A DNA stretch of 64,000 nt from Phlyctochytrium arcticum (taxonomy: Eukaryota; Chytridiomycota; Chytridiomycetes; Chytridiales; Chytridiaceae), in contig JAHLKI010000001.1 in NCBI GenBank assembly GCA_025602905.1, positions 2,907,898 through 2,971,897 of the forward strand. The letters run 5' to 3'. A program made the translations under genes and the position numbers. Below, piece by piece: positions 22,219 to 30,802 of the stretch (the stretch's first letter is position 1; each line of letters starts with the position of its first letter). The notes below the pieces were generated by a model. The model had not been told where the DNA came from, made no database searches, and worked only from the letters and a program-made list of their open reading frames with translations.

Positions 22219-22320
22219 TCGCTTTGGTCTTTCTAGCCTTGCATTATGTCTTTCCATGTACATCTTGTTTACAATTCCAGCAATATGAAACGTGAGAGGG
22301 ATTATACAAGTTATATGTAA

Positions 22321-22341
22321 CCCGACCCCCAAGGGTACGGG
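22321..22341 (-). other. Hairpin 3' of the Fanzor gene, candidate guide-RNA scaffold element
   Basis: About 70 bp beyond the Fanzor stop, the minus strand reads CCCG-T-ACCC-TTGG-GGGT-CGGG, a hairpin with an eight-pair stem, one bulged T and a four-base loop. It sits in a GC-rich patch inside AT-rich spacer, next to GGGGGGTTGACGCCC. In described TnpB and Fanzor loci the guide RNA overlaps or follows the 3' end of the gene. Position and structure fit that, but it could equally be a transcription end signal shared with SGT1. Confidence 0.3.
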
Positions 22342-22407
22342 ATCCAGAATATGTGAGGGCGTCAACCCCCCCGGAAAATGTCTATATAATACCCCGACTA
22401 TTTCAAG

Positions 22408-24478
22408 CTATCTACCCCTCTGAAATGGAAGTGGCCGCACGCCAGTCTGCAGGAGAGCTCGAACTATGGTGGCCATATTGAGAGTACTGAGGCCGTCGCG
22501 GTTGTAGTATCGCATACGCTGCCCCACATTCCCATCCGCTGTCCAATCCTGCTCTATACAATCTGGGTTGGTACAACCCAGCAGGCCGTGGACAGACTGA
22601 TGGTGCCCTTGCGCTCGGCGCCAGGGCCGGGATGACAGGCGAGTCTTGATGTTTTTGATGACTAGAACTTGGAATTAATACTTGTTGGTCATCTCTCACA
22701 AACAATCAGACTTGCATACCTGGTTGATGACAACGACAGCACAACGCCGACGTCTTGAATTCGTCCAGGAGGAAACACTGAACGTGGTGCTGGCGAAATG
22801 TTTTTCTCCAACCAGCCGTCTTGCTTGATGTCTGGAACCTGGCGGTTCGCCCCGCAGCGTCCCAGTCCCCCAAGACCACGACAAAGTTCTCGCCGAATTT
22901 GTCTCGCATCCGATTGATCAGCTCGGCCTCCGACTTTTGGGTGAATGAATGACAACGGAAGCGCGAGCGGCGGTGGAAGCGCCGATGGTAGAACGCCTGG
23001 AGCTCCTGCCGATGATTGGCCTGATATTCCAGATATTCGACGAATTGATTCGTATTCATGGTCTTGTGGGTAGGAATTGCAGATTCCAGTGATTCTATGT
23101 CAGCATCCCTCCGCATCGACTGGGACGTCTTGCGTATGACCTTGGACCTGGTTTCTTTGTTTCGCTGATTGGCAGTATACCGCATCGTTTCTCCGCCATG
23201 AACACCGCGACAAAATAGGATGTCCCTTTTGTTTGGGTCTATCACCACGATGTTCGGCGCTTGTCCCAAAGTATCAAGATTTTGATCGCAGTAGGTAGCA
23301 GCAATTTCAGCTCTGATTGCTGCCTTTGACTTGCGCTTAGCTGAGGTACCGTATTTGAATCCAGGCGTTTGAAGGTGGACCGAGACTGCATGCCCATCCG
23401 TGGCGATGGAGAAATCAAACTCGAGCCCGGTCGATTGCTGGGGCTGGAAGACTCTTGATTCCAGCCGGAAACAGTTGCTCCATAGGTCGTACTTTCGGTT
23501 GCCCTCCCTTAGTACGCCTGCCTGCTTGCGAGTCAAACACAATATACTCTTGGCCAGTATCGTTGTGTCAATTCGAATCGATGATTGAATATGAGACTTT
23601 CGCAAGGGAATCGCCGTGAATGATGGGTATTGGTACTGTTCGTACAGCTCTGCCAGCTTGCAATACGACTGGAGGTAGTGTAGTGGCTCTACCACGACAT
23701 CTAAAGCAATGCCGTCTGCACTCTCTATCGCTCTTCGAGGCAGGATCGACCAGATTTCGTCAAGAATGGCTGCTTCTTCAACGGGCAACCCATCCAATTC
23801 CTCCTCGGTCGGAACAGTGTCGAAAGTAGCAATGCTTTTAAGCCATCGTACACGTTGATAGAAGGCTGGCAATAACTCCCGTTGATTCGTGATTTTGAGA
23901 TGCTGCACCCGTTCTTTCACATCAAGACGCCGATTCAGGAATCGCAAGAGCATTTTGTAGTAATTCTGCTGAATGTTGACTCTCAAGTTGGTGAAAATAC
24001 TCTTGCCCACATAGTGGGAAGGCTGCTGGTCATCCTTCATTTGTGGCTGGTGGAAATTGGCCAAAGCGCTGTAAATGGGAATGGTGTCAATATAACGGTT
24101 TTTGATCGCGACCATCTCCGGTGCTGTGGGATTGTATGCGTTGCCTTTGTTGAGCAACTGGAAGATGGCGTACATGTCTTCGGCCTTGGGAGGTTCCAGA
24201 GACACGTCATGCAGGTGCTGAGTGTAGAAGAACCGGAGAAATTGTGTTGTGTGAGAAGCTAGCTCGTGCACCGTCTTGATGAAAGATAACAGCCGCTGTA
24301 AGTAGATGGGCGCAAGGGGATGCTGATGGTTGAAAATTCTTGCAAGCGAAATCTTGCGGGCGGATTGGCGGGGGTTTGGGCCGGCGTTTGCAAAAGATTC
24401 AGGTAGAGGAGTAGGATTTCCAGGAGGGTTTGGTGGCTTTTTCTTGCGTTTCGGGCCGGTGGGGACCCAGAAGTACAC
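22408..24478 (-). CDS. Fanzor (eukaryotic TnpB-type RNA-guided nuclease)
   Basis: Exon 24478-22720 plus exon 22661-22408 (intron 22719-22662, GTATGC...TTCTAG) gives 670 codons in frame. The RuvC core is complete only when spliced. Motif I is IVVIDPNKRD with Asp at ~414; a central VVVLGDWDAAG (~534-544) stands in the RuvC-II region as in Fanzor1 proteins; the zinc finger has C580/C583 and C616/C621 (GCTNPDC); motif III is YNRDGLSTLNM with Asp ~642. TDGHAVSV (~361-367) and RYTANQRNKE are also Fanzor-like. Known members cut DNA guided by an RNA made at their 3' end. The 5' end is unsettled: this frame has no ATG before a stop, only GTG at 24478, while an ATG at 24501 opens another frame (MPPKTKRQ). 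An unseen intron or a frameshift is needed. Confidence 0.88.
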
Positions 24479-24501
24479 TGTCTCTTCGTTTTTGGTGGCA
24501 T

Positions 24502-25393
24502 TGTGTGTATGTATGTGCGATGCGAGAATTGGAAATCAGTATATTTGGAAGGAGGACATCTAAAAAGACCAATCAAAAAGAGAGGATTAGGCGTTTGTTG
24601 TTGCCGATGAGCGATGTTGAAGAAACTGACCAAAGAAGTAAATTCGGGTACGATCGGTTGCAACGCGAATAGTCTTTGTCGAAAAAAAGGATGGGGGAAA
24701 GCAGCGGGGGGACTTGGCGACGGGCTGCTTATATATGCAAAACGCCAGCACGCCGCCATGTCGCAGTGCGTGCGGGTTCTAAACCGCCATTTTTCCCACA
24801 GATCTAGCTCCTCCTTCCCGCGCCACACACACCTGCTCCGTCGGGTCCCGCCCTGGCTCGACGGATTGTGTGGATATTTCTAGGAGTGCGCATGTACGAA
24901 AATAAACTTTCTTATTCATTGCCTGGGGGCATTTACATGCTGTCGTTCACATGCAATGCAGAATTGCAGGCTATGTGATAGACTTTTAAATTCCGAGTAA
25001 AACGCGATGGCTGGTGCGTCGGCAGAAATTCAAAAATCGAAAGTTGCGTTTGGAGGCCAGGCATTCAATGAGCGCCATCTCATTCACTAGATGTAGACAG
25101 AAAAGGGCGACGACATTCGAATCCTAGATGAGCGACACAAGACAATGCATGGACAGCGCCTCAATATGTCTGTAGATCTACAAATAAGCCTGCAAAGGAT
25201 GGGCAGTTTTGGTCTGAATTCCACGCTAGTTCTGTAAGTTAGCTTTACTATATATACCACCTGATACAGAGTGAATATACTATTGACATGATTGCGTAAG
25301 AGAGTTCTGCATATGTGTAGCTTTGTGGTTATCGCTGTGAGGAAGTTATCGCTGTAAGAAAATAGTCTGGGAAAGCGTATGAGCATTTCGATC
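24502..25393. other. Gene-poor spacer upstream of Fanzor
   Basis: About 890 bp with many stops in all frames. A G-run at 24698-24710 and a TATATATG stretch at 24731-24738 lie upstream of the Fanzor start on the minus strand and could be promoter. I found no terminal inverted repeat that pairs with the far side of the Fanzor gene. Confidence 0.35.
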
Positions 25394-25834
25394 TCAGCTC
25401 TTGGTAAGTAACCTCACCCTCAGTTGTTCAGATTTGATCTTCAGTACCGATTCAATGATGGAGAACTCATCAGTCAACCCGACACTGAGCACTTTGTGTA
25501 CTTTCATCAAGAATTTGCGACCTCTTGGGATCCGTTCGATGTAGATGTCCTCGTGTATAACCCCCATCCATGACATCCGATCTATAAGGTCGACAACGAG
25601 GGCTTGTGTGAGAGATGTTGTGGGTAGCAAGCTGAGAAGAGCATCCAAGTCGGTCCATTTGATTTGCCGCAAGTTTTCCATGGTCTTGCTCCGGCAGAAG
25701 ATTTCTTTGAGCATTCCGGGCGTTGTCATCCTCATCATTAACGACCAACACCGACTCCTCCCGTACGGCGTTATCTTAATATCTTTGGTCTTGGTGGATG
25801 CCCAACGGGCCTTGGCGGCTTGCTTTTTGGTCAT
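25394..25834 (-). CDS. Hypothetical small protein
   Basis: An open frame of 146 codons from an ATG at 25834. It is basic at the N-terminus (MTKKQAAKARW), then has amphipathic helical stretches such as WTDLDALLSLLP and SIIESVLKIKSEQLRVRLL. The frame stays open upstream to 26005 without another ATG. I recognise no family. It is the first open frame upstream of Fanzor on the same strand and could be passenger DNA of the same element; nothing proves it. Confidence 0.3.
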   Translation of the reverse strand: MTKKQAAKARWASTKTKDIKITPYGRSRCWSLMMRMTTPGMLKEIFCRSKTMENLRQIKWTDLDALLSLLPTTSLTQALVVDLIDRMSWMGVIHEDIYIERIPRGRKFLMKVHKVLSVGLTDEFSIIESVLKIKSEQLRVRLLTKS

Positions 25835-25999
25835 CTTGAGGACTTTAGACGACTGTCGCGTAGTATCAATTTTGAGTTTGGGAAGCCTTGTTGCTGGTAT
25901 TGAGTTGCTTGCGAAGCATTCGTCCGTTCGCGCAGAACCCGCGGACCACGTTGAGTGCCCATCGCAAGCAATGGAATCGTAGTGAATAGAGTTCCGTGA

Positions 26000-27530
26000 T
26001 GACAATAAACAATAGATATACGATACGAAGGAAAGCTTGCTGTGGCAGATGGTGGAGCTTCTTTTTCATCCCAGCTAGTAAAAGTGAAAGAGCCAGAAAA
26101 AGTAAATTGGAAAAGAGAAACAGAGGTAGTGAAGAGAAACAGTCAAAGTACCGTGAAAGGAAGAAAAAAATAAAAGAGTCTCAAATAGGGATTAAAAGAT
26201 AAGAGGAAGCAAGCATTTAGACAGATCTGCCTGACTCTACATACGAATCCTGGGTACAGGAATGGGTATCCAAACGCATAAGGTGAGGAATATGCCCAAA
26301 GGACAGCATAGTAAGAGTGGGAACAAAACAATACGCGACCAAAGTCTTGTGAATCTGCAAACAGCTGCGTTTTTTGGGGATAGGAACAAAGGACAGAAGA
26401 GAAAAGGTGGAAACAAAATATCGGTAACACGCAGGGGTTCATCTGCCAGACAGACGGAGCAGATGTATAAAACGGGCAAAGTTGGAAACAAAGCATGGCG
26501 CTACAGGAGTAACAACAGTACGGACAGCATCTGTCCCGCAGACAGGAAATGAAGCAAAACATGAGCGCACACAGGAAGTATGGCCAGATTTGGCAGACTG
26601 CTCAGACGGAGTGCATCAAGATGGAACACGTCGAAAGAAGTTGAGTGTGCGGCAGACGCGAAAAGGACAGGAAAGGCAAAGAAGGGGAAACGAAGTAATC
26701 GGCGGTCAGCAAATGGGTAGAAGCCTGTGAGAAAGAAGAAATAGCTAAGAAAGCAGTAATGTTGGATCATCAAATGTATACAGGACTGCTGGACTGCCAG
26801 GCAGGAGAACCCAAATGTGTAAAAAAGGAGCAGTAGGAAGCAAGACAATAGACAGATACATCGTACATCCTCATCCCGAGTACGGATAAGCACAAAAAAC
26901 AGGAAGGGAAGAGTGAGAACTGAAGATGAGTAACAGCCCTAAAAAGTCAAAGTCCGGAAAACAGATGGAGCATGTAAATAGGACGAAGATTAGAAAGAAA
27001 GGTTGGCTGCAGAAAGTCAGATCTCGAGACAAAAAGAAGCTGTAGCTACGTTGTACGGACAGATCATGCAGAAAGGCAGGAGAGCCCAGAACAGAAACAG
27101 GTTCAAGGTCTTGGGACATTGTGGTAGGCTTTAAGAAAGGATTATAGGACCAAATAGATCGTAGACAGGAGCCAGGCAAAGAAAACGGAAGTATAGGGGA
27201 GTAAGTAGATGAACGTACTGGAAAACATAAAGCTACAGTCATGAGAAGATTTGGCCAAACGAAAGGCGGAAAGAATGAAAATACGAAGAAATGTACGTCT
27301 TACATTGGACATATATTCGGAAAGGACAGACAGGATGGGACACAATTGGAAGAGAACTGAAAGGGAGGGTGCGAAAGACATGAGGTCAGAAAGGATACCC
27401 AAGGCACCCAAGCAGACAAAAAGACTGACATGACAGAACCCTGGCCGTTTTTTTAAAACTGAACCAATAGGGCGTACTAATTTGTACACAGATTGGGACC
27501 CTCCCCTCCAATCCTTTCCCATGCGACTTG
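26000..27530. other. Purine-biased non-coding tract
   Basis: For about 1.5 kb the plus strand is strongly A/G-rich, with degenerate repeats around GGACAG/GACAGG. No ATG-initiated frame with domain or codon character is seen on either strand; the long minus frames are Phe/Cys/Leu-rich consequences of the pyrimidine strand. It may be a decayed repeat or a non-coding transcript unit. Confidence 0.45.
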
Positions 27531-28272
27531 GTCATTAGGTAGGCATCATCTCCAAAGACATCATCTTATGGGTGCAAATGGAGTTGGCCTGGACGGAACT
27601 TCTATTTTGCTGCATCCTAGTCAAAGCGGACGTGGATAGTATGCACAAAAACTGCGCGCGATAGTTATGGAATCGTGGGAACTTTTCATAGTAGTAGGTT
27701 AGCCAATGCAGCGGGTTAGAGCGATAAATGTCTTCTACAACTATTTTTGTCCGACATATAAAATGATACAAGGATTTTGGGTGCCTACTACGAAAATCAT
27801 TTTTTTGGGTCTATCTCCAATTTCAATGCATTCATGGATTATATTCAACCCATTTACATTGTACCTTTCCTCCTCGCTGATCAGCCAATCGAATTGATTG
27901 GCAAAGAGGGGATCACTACAGACAAACCATTTGTCAAGCAAGTCAATTTCTTCTTCTTCTTCTTAGTCTGAAGTCTGAGTATAAGCAGTGATATGCTCTT
28001 GGCGAAACTCAAGGATGCTTTTCTAAAAGACCTTTCCCTTGGACGTACAATGATGGACATCCTTGAACATGAAAACATCCGCAAATCTAGGACGCGTCAC
28101 GTCGTGCGAATCTCGCTTTTGACGGGTCAAACATCAAACAAAGGGTGTTATGAGCACGATGAGAAGTATCATGTGTTATCATATCAAGCATCAGACCAGT
28201 TGTTATAGATTTGGAGACGCGTATAAGAAGAAACAAAAACTAAGTTATTCGACCTGCAACAGCCTTTTGATC
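27531..28272. other. AT-rich spacer, no gene supported
   Basis: About 740 bp with only short frames and a TTC/TCT microsatellite at about 27949-27965. Nothing recognisable. Confidence 0.35.
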
Positions 28273-28693
28273 TTACAACGTAGGGGAATGGACTTTGACA
28301 ACAGCTGAGAGATGAGGGAGACATGGATAGCGAGCTTCAACAACAGGGAGGCGAGATTCACGAGAATCAAACAACAGGGAGGCGAGGCCCGCGAGCTTGG
28401 ACAACAGGAAGACGGAGTTCGCGAGCAACACCCATGGGGCCGGGAAGGGGTGGTTCCCGAACTTCGGGTCCGCGAGCTTTGACAATATTACCTGAACGAG
28501 GAAGAAGGGGCTCGGGAGCTTCGACAACAGGAAGACGGGGCTCGCGAGCTTCGACAATAGGAAGACGGGGCACGCGAGCTTCGACAGCAGCAAGACGGGG
28601 CTTGCGAGCCTGCAGGCCCGCAGTACCAGTAGAGAGAGCCGACGTAGCCGAAACGGTCAAAGCAGCGACACAGATGGTAGGTGCGATCTTCAT
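28273..28693 (-). pseudogene. Secreted repeat-peptide precursor, frame broken near its 3' end
   Basis: An ATG at 28693 starts a good signal peptide (MKIAPTICVAALTVSATSA). It is followed by imperfect 10-residue units, one per 30 bp: ARKPRLAAVE, ARVPRLPIVE, AREPRLPVVE, then two diverged longer units, ARELRLPVVQ and ARGPRLPVV. A TGA then stops the frame at 28367-28369. The same repeat continues in a neighbouring frame (SRESRLPVVE, ARYPCLPHLS) to a stop at 28273. Either a frameshift has truncated the last units or there is an unseen splice. The layout of signal peptide plus short tandem peptides separated by basic residues resembles fungal pheromone or Kex2-processed repeat precursors, but classical Lys-Arg sites are missing. 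Type is given as pseudogene because of the break; the shorter 108-residue product may be functional. Confidence 0.45.
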
Positions 28694-28805
28694 CTTGAAA
28701 TACGATGTATCGAAAAAAGGAAGAGGGGATTTCGTTGAAGATAGCAGGGACAGGAGCTATCGAACACCTGCTTTTATACTCATTTTGCCACTTGTTGCGG
28801 GATAT

Positions 28806-28885
28806 TGTCAAAATGACGGAGTACTGTCAAAATGCTCGCCATCTAGGCTATGAGCACCGGTCAAAATCGTCAAGGGTGTCAAAAT
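28806..28885. promoter_or_regulatory. Cluster of four TGTCAAAAT-type motifs
   Basis: TGTCAAAAT occurs at 28806, 28825 and 28877, with a near copy (GGTCAAAAT) at 28859, all within 80 bp and 113-192 bp upstream of the start of the secreted repeat precursor. Same orientation and regular density suggest a regulatory cluster. The binding factor is unknown. Confidence 0.35.
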
Positions 28886-29837
28886 TGTCAACGGTCGTGG
28901 TCTAAATTTGGTAACCTTGGTCTAAGATCGTAAAGTAAAGCAGACAGTCGGACTTGAATTGAAGTTGACTGATGCGTATGAAATGCAACTGTAAAAGGCT
29001 AATTATGATGGATGCGAAACAAACACATCGCAAATGTTGCGGCCCTTTGGCTGCTGTCATCTGGACGGGAGAGTGCGGTTACATCTGCAAGATCCACGCG
29101 GTAGTAACCGCTGAAGCAACATCTATACGCAAACGTCCGGAGTTTGAACGTGGGAGCAATCACAATATGCCATGTATGAATTATCAGCACTAAAAAAATG
29201 ACCCGTTCTATATTGGAGGATATGCTGATAAGCTCCGAAGGAATTGACCTGAAAGCGTGGGAATCTTCCCGGATTTGATTGGAGAACCAGCCTTCTTCCA
29301 TCAGGATGTTTGACCTCGGTGCCCCATTGTTCGCAGTTGTTGTTGAATGATACGGACAGCATTCACGAGCGTATGGGAAGTGCCATCATCGACTAAACGG
29401 ATTGATGACTTGGATGAAGGTTTATAGCGTTTCCTGGGGTGGTAACTACTCAAAGAGTCCTGGGAGGGAATTATTTAAACGTCCCAAGAGGGAGATCCCC
29501 ACCTACACAAACCCCACGCTGGGATGTAACCCGGAAATTCTGCTGAAGCCTGGGCATGGTTGGAACCAAAATTCTACCTCGCCCGAGACACAGCGCTTCG
29601 GGCGAGGTACAATTTTGCGGGGACTCTCCATGCTGCTCTCCATGTCATCTATTTGGGTGCGTATCGGGCGAAGTAAAATGCGTGTGGTTCGATCCAACAA
29701 CGCGTCCTCCGCAAGAATATACGCACCCGGATTTCCAGAGAATTTCCCACCAATTGCTCGCCGTAACCTCCATTGGTACACACCCATTCATAGGGAGAAA
29801 AATCATGATATTACTATTAAATAAAAGTAGGTAACAG
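28886..29837. other. Gene-poor spacer with inverted repeat
   Basis: About 950 bp without a supported gene. It contains the hairpin listed separately and partial echoes of one arm (TCGGGCGAAGTAAAAT at about 29668), suggesting remains of a repeat. Confidence 0.35.
29568..29616. repeat. 19 bp inverted repeat (hairpin)
   Basis: AAAATTCTACCTCGCCCGA at 29568-29586 is the reverse complement, with one mismatch, of 29598-29616; the loop is 11 nt. A degenerate copy of the right arm lies about 70 bp further on. Such near-perfect stems in non-coding DNA often mark element ends or structured transcripts. Confidence 0.6.
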
Positions 29838-30802
29838 CTAGGTAGATAAAGTCCCGCTATGCGAAGAGAAAGTCCAGTTAATCTGCGATTCCTCGGTCAC
29901 AAAAGTTTGCAATCTCTCAATGAACTGAAGGAGACGCTCGGTTGCCAACGGATCACCTTCTGTCACCTTGTCTTCAAGTCGAAAATAATGGTTAAGCAGC
30001 CTTTCATCGGCCTCTTTCACCTGTCGCTTCCTGTAATCTCTGTAGATATCGACGGGGCTGACTTCCTCTCTTTCCACAGGTACCCGAGAAATCGTTTCAT
30101 AAACCTCGAAACCGCACTCGTCAAACATTTGCGCATATCGATCCCAAACCTCGTCGGTCAAAATTGGCTCCTCTGCGAATAGGTTAGCATGAAAAGCATG
30201 CTTGCAGGGCAACAAATACTGTCTGCCAAAGAGGCAATTGCACTCAAGGGTATCGTAATCAGGGGCCAGCTTTCCTTTGACGACTCGGTTTTCTACCGAG
30301 TTGTACTGTTCGATCAAGAGGCGCTGAACAGGCAGTGGGAAGCGACCTATGTTAGGGTGATCTTCAGTATCCTTCAATACCTTTGATTTGAACAAAACTT
30401 CGGGACGATCTGCCTCCAGGCGGCGCTGTATGTTGACTTTGGACAAACCACACACGCTTTTTGAATACTTGAGAATTTGCCACAGTTTCTGTCTGCTTTG
30501 ACTAGTCGATGATAAGATTCTAATGGATTTGTTGAAGTCATCTGTAGCAGGGTGGGAGAATGTTGACGCGCGGCCATTGTCCAGCAATCCAGCACAGCAG
30601 GATTTGCCCATAACTTTCCGGGATTATATGCCCCACCAAGGCGATATATCGGGTGGCGCGGGACAATCAGATCTGCAGATTCGCGCAGCCAATCAGCGTT
30701 GGCCGCCGCATCGTTGTTCGTCGAAGGAACAGCCGGTCTTCCATTTCCTCCCAAAATCATCTGGCAAACCACCACTACAATCTCCTCACAATCTACCGGC
30801 AA
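29838..30802 (-). pseudogene. MULE-type transposase remnant with SWIM zinc finger
   Basis: Two overlapping frames (30802-30374 and 30611-29838) together hold the C-terminal half of a Mutator-like transposase. The first has TNPLESYHRLVK, where the family has its Asn-Leu-Glu-x-x-His motif. The second holds the SWIM finger, CNC...LPCKHAFH, at about 30190-30255. The N-terminal catalytic DDE part is absent: the sequence stops at the leuA promoter. The change of frame near 30490 implies a frameshift or small intron. With the missing catalytic half I call it a fossil. The tail after SWIM (charged helices ending about 29850) could derive from the host. Confidence 0.6.

Follow-up and report, generated by a model that had tools for sequence, protein, structure and literature searches.

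The window analysed here is a stretch of 64,000 nucleotides of Phlyctochytrium arcticum (contig JAHLKI010000001.1, positions 2,907,898 to 2,971,897), situated at one end of contig C1 in a genome of 31.5 Mb. Its minus strand carries a spliced gene whose product, as judged by protein similarity and motifs, belongs to Fanzor1. The long exon (22720..24535), defined by the open frame and the alignment with SpuFz1, lies in an open frame of 609 codons at 24535-22706. The last exon (22408..22661), which ends with the stop codon at 22408-22410, is read in another frame and encodes GCTNPDC and NRDGLSTLNM. A 58-bp GT-AG intron of phase 1 (22662..22719) separates the two exons, as recognised by homology and by the alignment of copies of the gene. 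The gene forms the 3′ part of an 8.3-kb insertion.

In a search of the PDB at E-values up to 1, the top match of the spliced protein was SpuFz1 of Spizellomyces punctatus, with an E-value of 5.2e-158 over residues 76-687, followed by the Fanzor1 proteins of Parasitella parasitica (5.7e-41) and Guillardia theta (2.2e-5); three of the four matches obtained were Fanzor1, and the fourth had an E-value of 0.41. The value for SpuFz1, together with the homologous open frames of the same genome that span the splice point, indicates that the similarity is not due to chance. The magnesium ligands of SpuFz1 are given as E541, D383, N385 and D606 (PMC10432273), and all four are kept in the alignment, where their counterparts are E592, D433, N435 and D661, respectively. 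D433 is the RuvC-I Asp within VVIDPNKRD, D661 is the RuvC-III Asp within NRD, and the RuvC Glu takes the alternative position, at E592 within LLDEFKTS. The cysteines C599, C602, C635 and C640 pair up with C548, C551, C586 and C591 of SpuFz1, a pattern that suggests zinc binding. One catalytic Asp (D661) and two of these cysteines (C635 and C640) are contributed by the last exon. The Fanzor1 motif described in PMC3627910, D-X(125,275)-[TS][TS]XX-C4 zinc finger-X(5,50)-RD, is found in the spliced protein as D433, T595-S596, C599/C602/C635/C640 and R660-D661.

The original prediction of a Fanzor nuclease, with a RuvC-I Asp on the long exon and a core completed only by the last exon behind the 58 bp intron, is borne out by these alignments. 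A catalytic role for the GDW motif, which it noted in the RuvC-II region, was rejected; GDW is kept in SpuFz1 yet is no ligand there, and the catalytic Glu is E592 instead. The catalytic residues are present, and RNA-guided DNA cleavage would be the activity predicted for an intact copy, the frame of the window copy being broken near its start. Pfam scans gave no match for the spliced protein at E-values up to 1, nor for the public protein P0001 at E-values up to 0.01. P0001 is a hypothetical protein of P. arcticum on contig C48, 97% identical to the spliced product, and the precomputed domain PF26935 is assigned to it and to its relatives.

The 58-bp intron is identical in the five aligned copies of the gene (C1, which is the window copy, C48, C44, C6 and C17, named after their contigs). 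These copies and the near-identical C27 are referred to as family A; the intron is missing from a second, related family of the genome, family B, and from SpuFz1, which has a single ORF. The protein is continuous across the splice point in SpuFz1, in a Gaertneriomyces protein (a comparison at the protein level, the structure of that gene being not known) and in the open frames L016, L018, L020 and L022 of the same genome. Removal of the 58 bp preserves the stretch around SRPWRR that the homologues share. The claim of an intron at 22719-22662 thus stood, with GT...AG at its ends and a splice that restores the continuous protein of the homologues, and this comparison indicates that the intron is probably genuine. 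The public model P0001 uses a later junction, by which 18 conserved residues of the SRPWRR stretch are dropped; because of this omission, the evidence favours the 58-bp intron over the public model, which is likely to be in error. The intron, present in family A and absent from the related open frames, may represent a recent gain inside a transposon gene.

In the window copy, the ATG at 24501, which is the start used in the family, does not share the frame of the long exon, and the first in-frame ATG is at 24175, corresponding to residue 121. The window copy is one base short within the first dozen codons relative to all four other aligned copies (C48, C44, C6 and C17); C27 was left out of this alignment, and its open frame is as long as those of C44 and C48. 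Judging from the sequence, the window copy probably makes no full-length enzyme, and its break may be an assembly error. The long exon contains one stop in C6 and none in the other five copies, and the last exon of C17 has insertions of 7 and 3 bases, which shift the frame. The suggestion that the enzyme may be active therefore fails for the window copy, with its N-terminal frame break, and fits the sister copies C27, C44 and C48, whose long exons have no in-frame stop. Similarly, the extent of 22408..24501 first given for the gene is right at the end of the last exon, but not at the ATG, and the inserted unit is larger (22307-30619). The nine copy pairs with C6 or C17 had pN/pS values of 0.36-0.59; in the remaining six pairs the ratio was about 1 or higher, and the C1-C48 pair showed 0 synonymous and 5 non-synonymous changes; with so few changes, nothing firm follows about selection on the copies.

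The whole inserted unit covers 8313 bp (22307..30619, minus strand, as are all of its parts). Its borders were placed where the homology to C48 stops, at 30619, and where the 3′ homology of six copies stops, at CTTG, and each border is abutted by a duplication. Upstream of the gene lies the Y block (24834..27985), a pyrimidine-rich 5′ part of the element that is shared wholly or partly with other copies and with the locus C34; two of its ORFs were tested against Pfam and gave no match. It is followed by the U block (27986..29654), a carried-along upstream segment that is complete also in C48 and partly present in C27. The outermost part (29655..30619) is the 3′ piece of a MULE-like element, X, whose terminal repeat (...CGATACGCACCC) is located at 29655 and which is ended at 30619 by the 5′ end of the window insertion. 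A shorter element, 5.7 kb long and with 27985 as its left end, was also considered and was dropped because the homology to C48 continues past this position. The U block contains an ORF (28370-28756, minus strand) that by eye resembles a secreted protein with tandem repeats; it has no Pfam match and may be a piece of a captured host gene. Elsewhere in the genome, X is found at many loci and has terminal repeats and duplications of 8-9 bp in the three copies read; it is about 2633 bp long, and these copies are more than 99% identical, so that X was probably active recently. An SGT1-like gene with TPR, CS and SGS domains has its stop codon 88 bp before the insertion, which in turn is situated upstream of a 2-isopropylmalate synthase-like gene. 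At gathering scores, Rfam models matched only a tRNA within the window.

A protein search of the genome returned 66 matching stretches altogether, most of them 29-60% identical, and among them were six near-identical copies (C1, C6, C17, C27, C44 and C48; 97-100%). A query with the right end matched six loci, all of which are these Fanzor copies. The 3′ end is CTTG in all six, followed by TA in five and by AA in C27, and in C6 it is immediately preceded by 12 additional bases. The 5′ ends vary from copy to copy: that of the window copy is at 30619, inside X; those of C48 and C44 are at other points, further left in X; the C6 copy runs through the left repeat of X itself; that of C27 corresponds to about 28595; and C17 has a left end of its own and a 1.96-kb insertion. 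At the locus C34, the Y block is present, and the Fanzor gene and the 3′ end are absent. The Fanzor element has probably spread through the genome recently.

The window copy is flanked by an exact 9-bp repeat, TATAATCCC, with its right copy at 22298..22306 and its left copy, preceded by GGCA, at 30620..30628 (both minus strand). The repeat adjoins both ends of the unit, which had been fixed by homology before it was sought, and its probability by chance is about 4e-6. In C17, TAGAGAGAG is found on both sides, and the left end seems to be cut within ...AGAGTATAC, so that the duplication may be 5 to 9 bp long. In C44, GGCA is followed by nine bases up to the junction, and the right flank is different. 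C27 and C48 do not fit the duplication pattern: the left and right flanks are mutually unlike in C27, as in C44, and the left end of C48 shows neither a duplication nor CATA; C6 has no readable left junction. In family B, the 5′-truncated copy L015 has a 12-bp duplication, and L016, L017 and L018, which have the full left end, show by eye no duplication beyond TA.

The left flanks of C1, C44 and C17 share GCA, followed by TA and seven nucleotides up to the junction, the junction of C17 being ambiguous by 4 nt. The left junction is readable in five copies of family A, three of which thus have GCA^TA; C48 is without it, and in C27 CATA occurs 15-16 nt away, off the 9-nt spacing. The insertion motif of these few copies, CA^TA, coincides with CATA, which is given as the TAM of SpuFz1 (PMC10432273). 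Among the nine distinct related left ends that were read elsewhere in the genome, CA precedes the 5′ end in two, and at seven the genome protein search gave no Fanzor match within 10 kb.

Left ends related to that of C17 are found at 23 places, C17 included, and 15 of the others were read. The 15-mer ATCAAAAGAGTATAC is present within one mismatch in 11 of these 15 loci, nine of which are distinct, two pairs being duplicates; L071 and C33 are without it, and C24 (T|TC) and C6b (A|TC) have diverged. Likewise, 11 of the 15 start with A|TC, that is, with a 5′-TC end inserted between A and T. The window copy itself does not have this 5′ terminus; the right flank begins with T in five of the six family A copies. 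A genome search for ATCAAAAGAGTATAC with one mismatch gave 27 sites, compared with 3 for the reversed pattern. The variant ATCACAAGAGTATAC occurs at eight sites, and six of them (C2, C3 twice, C4, C39 and C47) lie 1125-1137 bp upstream, on the same strand, of a match to PF14214, the Helitron Rep; these six are related copies and amount to roughly one event. In the stretch fetched, C39 does not differ from C47, and C4 has no match to it. The Fanzor family therefore shares its 5′ terminus with Rep-bearing elements of the same genome. In total, 101 PF14214 Rep stretches were found in the genome, many of them on a few contigs (C3, C4, C25 and others).

At the 3′ side, the 18-mer of the right end was found at 22 sites of the genome when up to 3 mismatches were allowed, compared with 23 for the reversed control, which is no excess. 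A site on C3 (L089, C3:529330-529470), 6.0 kb downstream of the 5′ end of a Rep element, shares GGGTTACATCTA with the right end of C17. The homology of L089 to a copy on C24 (L090, C24:257950-258090) continues past GGGTTACATCTA and diverges soon after, with no CTTG end. No Rep gene was seen in the Fanzor element itself. Because its 3′ end is CTTG in all six copies, not the Helitron consensus CTRR, the element is called Helitron-like here and is not filed as a Helitron. The 3′ hairpin of family A is a stem of 4+4 bp with one bulge, which is not better than shuffles (z about 0), and that of family B is a perfect stem of 7 bp. The right and left ends of family B have 7 and 6 matches, respectively; those read, namely all except one of the seven (C20, 83%), are located at family B copies. 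The listed ORFs of L070 (C27:105700-111100), which are flanked by a related left end and a Y-like block, include by eye no obvious transposase; they resemble, also by eye, a host membrane protein that the element possibly captured.

By analogy with SpuFz1, the scaffold of an omega RNA is predicted in the region 22305..22407 (minus strand), which is aligned in six copies. This region includes the 103 nt between the stop codon and the right end, where the hairpin of 4+4 bp ends 14 nt before the terminus CTTG (22307), which is followed by the fixed TA. The guide of SpuFz1 is 14-15 nt long (PMC10432273), and the native guide is accordingly predicted in the next 14-15 bases of host DNA beside the right end (22290..22304, minus strand). 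The fold of this region is not better than shuffles in family A, and its z value in family B is −6.9. Fanzor1 guide RNAs have been predicted to take the target duplication into the scaffold (PMC10711439), a prediction with which the fixed TA would agree. When empty, the site of the window copy would read GGGGCA^TATAATCCC, namely the CATA TAM followed by the guide, and the occupied site, which reads TGTA, should be spared. With up to 3 mismatches allowed, matches to the guide of the window copy beside CATA were confined to its own place (TGTA, 2 mismatches) and two sites on C9 (3 mismatches).

The explanation that we regard as moderately probable is that the Fanzor1 gene resides on a non-autonomous Helitron-like element, which is moved in trans by one-ended transposition and also carries the omega RNA sequence at its 3′ end. 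The Fanzor element would probably be mobilised by the replicase of Helitrons that lie elsewhere in the genome and have the same 5′ terminus. Replication or insertion would be anchored at the 3′ end, consisting of the hairpin, CTTG and then a host T, and the 5′ end would often be missed. The expected outcome would be a fixed 3′ end, short target-site duplications, and varied 5′ ends with which upstream sequence may be captured. Transcription of this 3′ end would yield the omega RNA scaffold, with the host DNA beyond it as the guide; since the guide would have the sequence of the empty insertion site beside CATA, the nuclease would cut chromosomes without the element. Here the omega RNA, the guide, the TAM, the cutting and the mobilising enzyme are what we infer. 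Copying of the one-ended rolling-circle type from the 3′ end explains the fixed 3′ ends, the varied 5′ ends and the duplications in truncated copies. It leaves C34, which has the 5′ part without the 3′ end, unexplained, and this is counted against the explanation, as are the CTTG end, the weak hairpin, the fact that the 5′ terminus is the only link between the element and the Rep loci, and the flanks of C48, C44 and C27.

The left flanks of C1, C44 and C17, in which the TAM of SpuFz1 stands seven nucleotides from the junction (ambiguous by 4 nt in C17), would also agree with a nuclease-driven process, in which Fanzor cuts a CATA site and repair then copies the element from its 3′ side to a variable stopping point, hence the varied 5′ ends. 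This process is clearly unlikely, because SpuFz1 is described as cleaving 16-21 nt beyond the TAM (PMC10432273), compared with junctions about 7 nt beyond it here, because the right flanks differ by eye among the six copies, so that no copy's guide fits the site of another, and because the 5′ terminus common to the Helitron Rep loci would be left unexplained. Carriage or movement of the element by the MULE-like X is unlikely and is disfavoured, even though duplications of 9 bp are typical of MULEs, the three X copies read have duplications of 8-9 bp compared with 9 bp at the window insertion, X sequence forms the left end of C1, C48, C44 and C6, and MuDR-type Fanzor1 elements with 9-bp TSDs are on record (PMC3627910). 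The points at which X is cut differ among C1, C48 and C44, X has no match in C17 and C27, and none of its terminal repeats is found at the Fanzor 3′ end. Terminal repeats of X do not bound the window unit; the only one present lies inside it, at 29655.

If the copies resulted merely from recent segmental duplications, the joint presence of U and X in C1 and C48 and the lack of the 3′ end at C34 would be readily understood, and the fixed 3′ end and the duplication would be coincidental. The exact 9-bp repeat at two independently defined ends and the 12-bp duplication in family B make this very unlikely. The classical LINE pattern combines 5′ truncation and a constant 3′ end with variable duplications, and it would speak for retrotransposition in trans, in which a LINE-type enzyme copies RNA from the 3′ end. 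Such retrotransposition is nevertheless disfavoured as very improbable, since the unspliced 58-bp intron is kept in the five aligned copies and there is no A-rich tail at the 3′ junctions.

The original description of the locus as uncharacterised understates what is available. SpuFz1, its relative, is a Fanzor1 with a solved structure (PDB 8GKH) that has been used for genome editing (PMC10432273), P0001 is public, and descriptions of transposon-borne Fanzor1 genes date back to 2013 (PMC3627910). The Phlyctochytrium element resembles that of SpuFz1 in its ligands, its paired cysteines, the position of the gene just upstream of the right end of the element, and the CATA TAM compared with CA^TA at three insertions. 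It differs in that the SpuFz1 element is described as 2.1 kb long, with 30-nt inverted repeats and a single ORF (PMC10432273), whereas the Phlyctochytrium unit is kilobases longer and has an intron and varied 5′ ends; no matching terminal repeats were seen in it by eye. The elements CRe-1/2/3 of Chlamydomonas reinhardtii are similar in being non-autonomous Helitrons with an intron-bearing Fanzor1, in having intact 3′ ends, and in that 5′-truncated copies have TSDs of 7-19 bp and copies with the consensus 5′ end have none (PMC3627910). They are described as being of the Helitron2 type, inserted after TTTT (PMC3627910), and their host is a green alga; in contrast, the present element is hosted by a chytrid fungus and targets A^T, and the 5′ end of its related loci is A|TC. 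In Mucor circinelloides, MCi-2 is an unclassified fungal family whose Fanzor1 copies share the 3′ region and differ at the 5′ side, with TSDs of 11-12 bp and no recognised terminal repeats (PMC3627910). Its TSDs are reported to follow ATAATTNNNN(N), a pattern that the present duplications do not follow, and one of its subfamilies has a partial Crypton transposase (PMC3627910), a gene that was not noticed in the Phlyctochytrium unit.

In a chytrid, a Fanzor1 that retains all of its residues is nothing unusual, and one-ended Helitrons with a Fanzor1 are already known. New here are the host, the intron, the 5′-terminal link to Rep loci and the apparent coincidence of the insertion motif with the TAM, the last being based on few copies; no paper on this P. 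arcticum element was among those listed for Fanzor in the library searched. The biological role of Fanzor is described as open (PMC10432273). The present genome combines several nearly identical, probably young Fanzor1 copies and readable insertion sites with a possible mobilising Helitron and predicted guides beside a known TAM, and it thereby offers a direct testing ground for the idea that Fanzor promotes the retention or spread of an element in eukaryotes. Fanzor might shape where its Helitron-like carrier persists, by cutting element-free homologues and favouring copies at its own TAM, as a eukaryotic counterpart of TnpB-driven retention for an element of the one-ended rolling-circle type; we regard this as a rather unlikely conjecture. 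The element is also a likely fungal example of one-ended transposition accompanied by duplications. The genome has a third Fanzor family, more distant than A and B (L023, L025, L026 and L033), with ends that by eye resemble inverted repeats, and different Fanzor families of the genome may ride different types of element.
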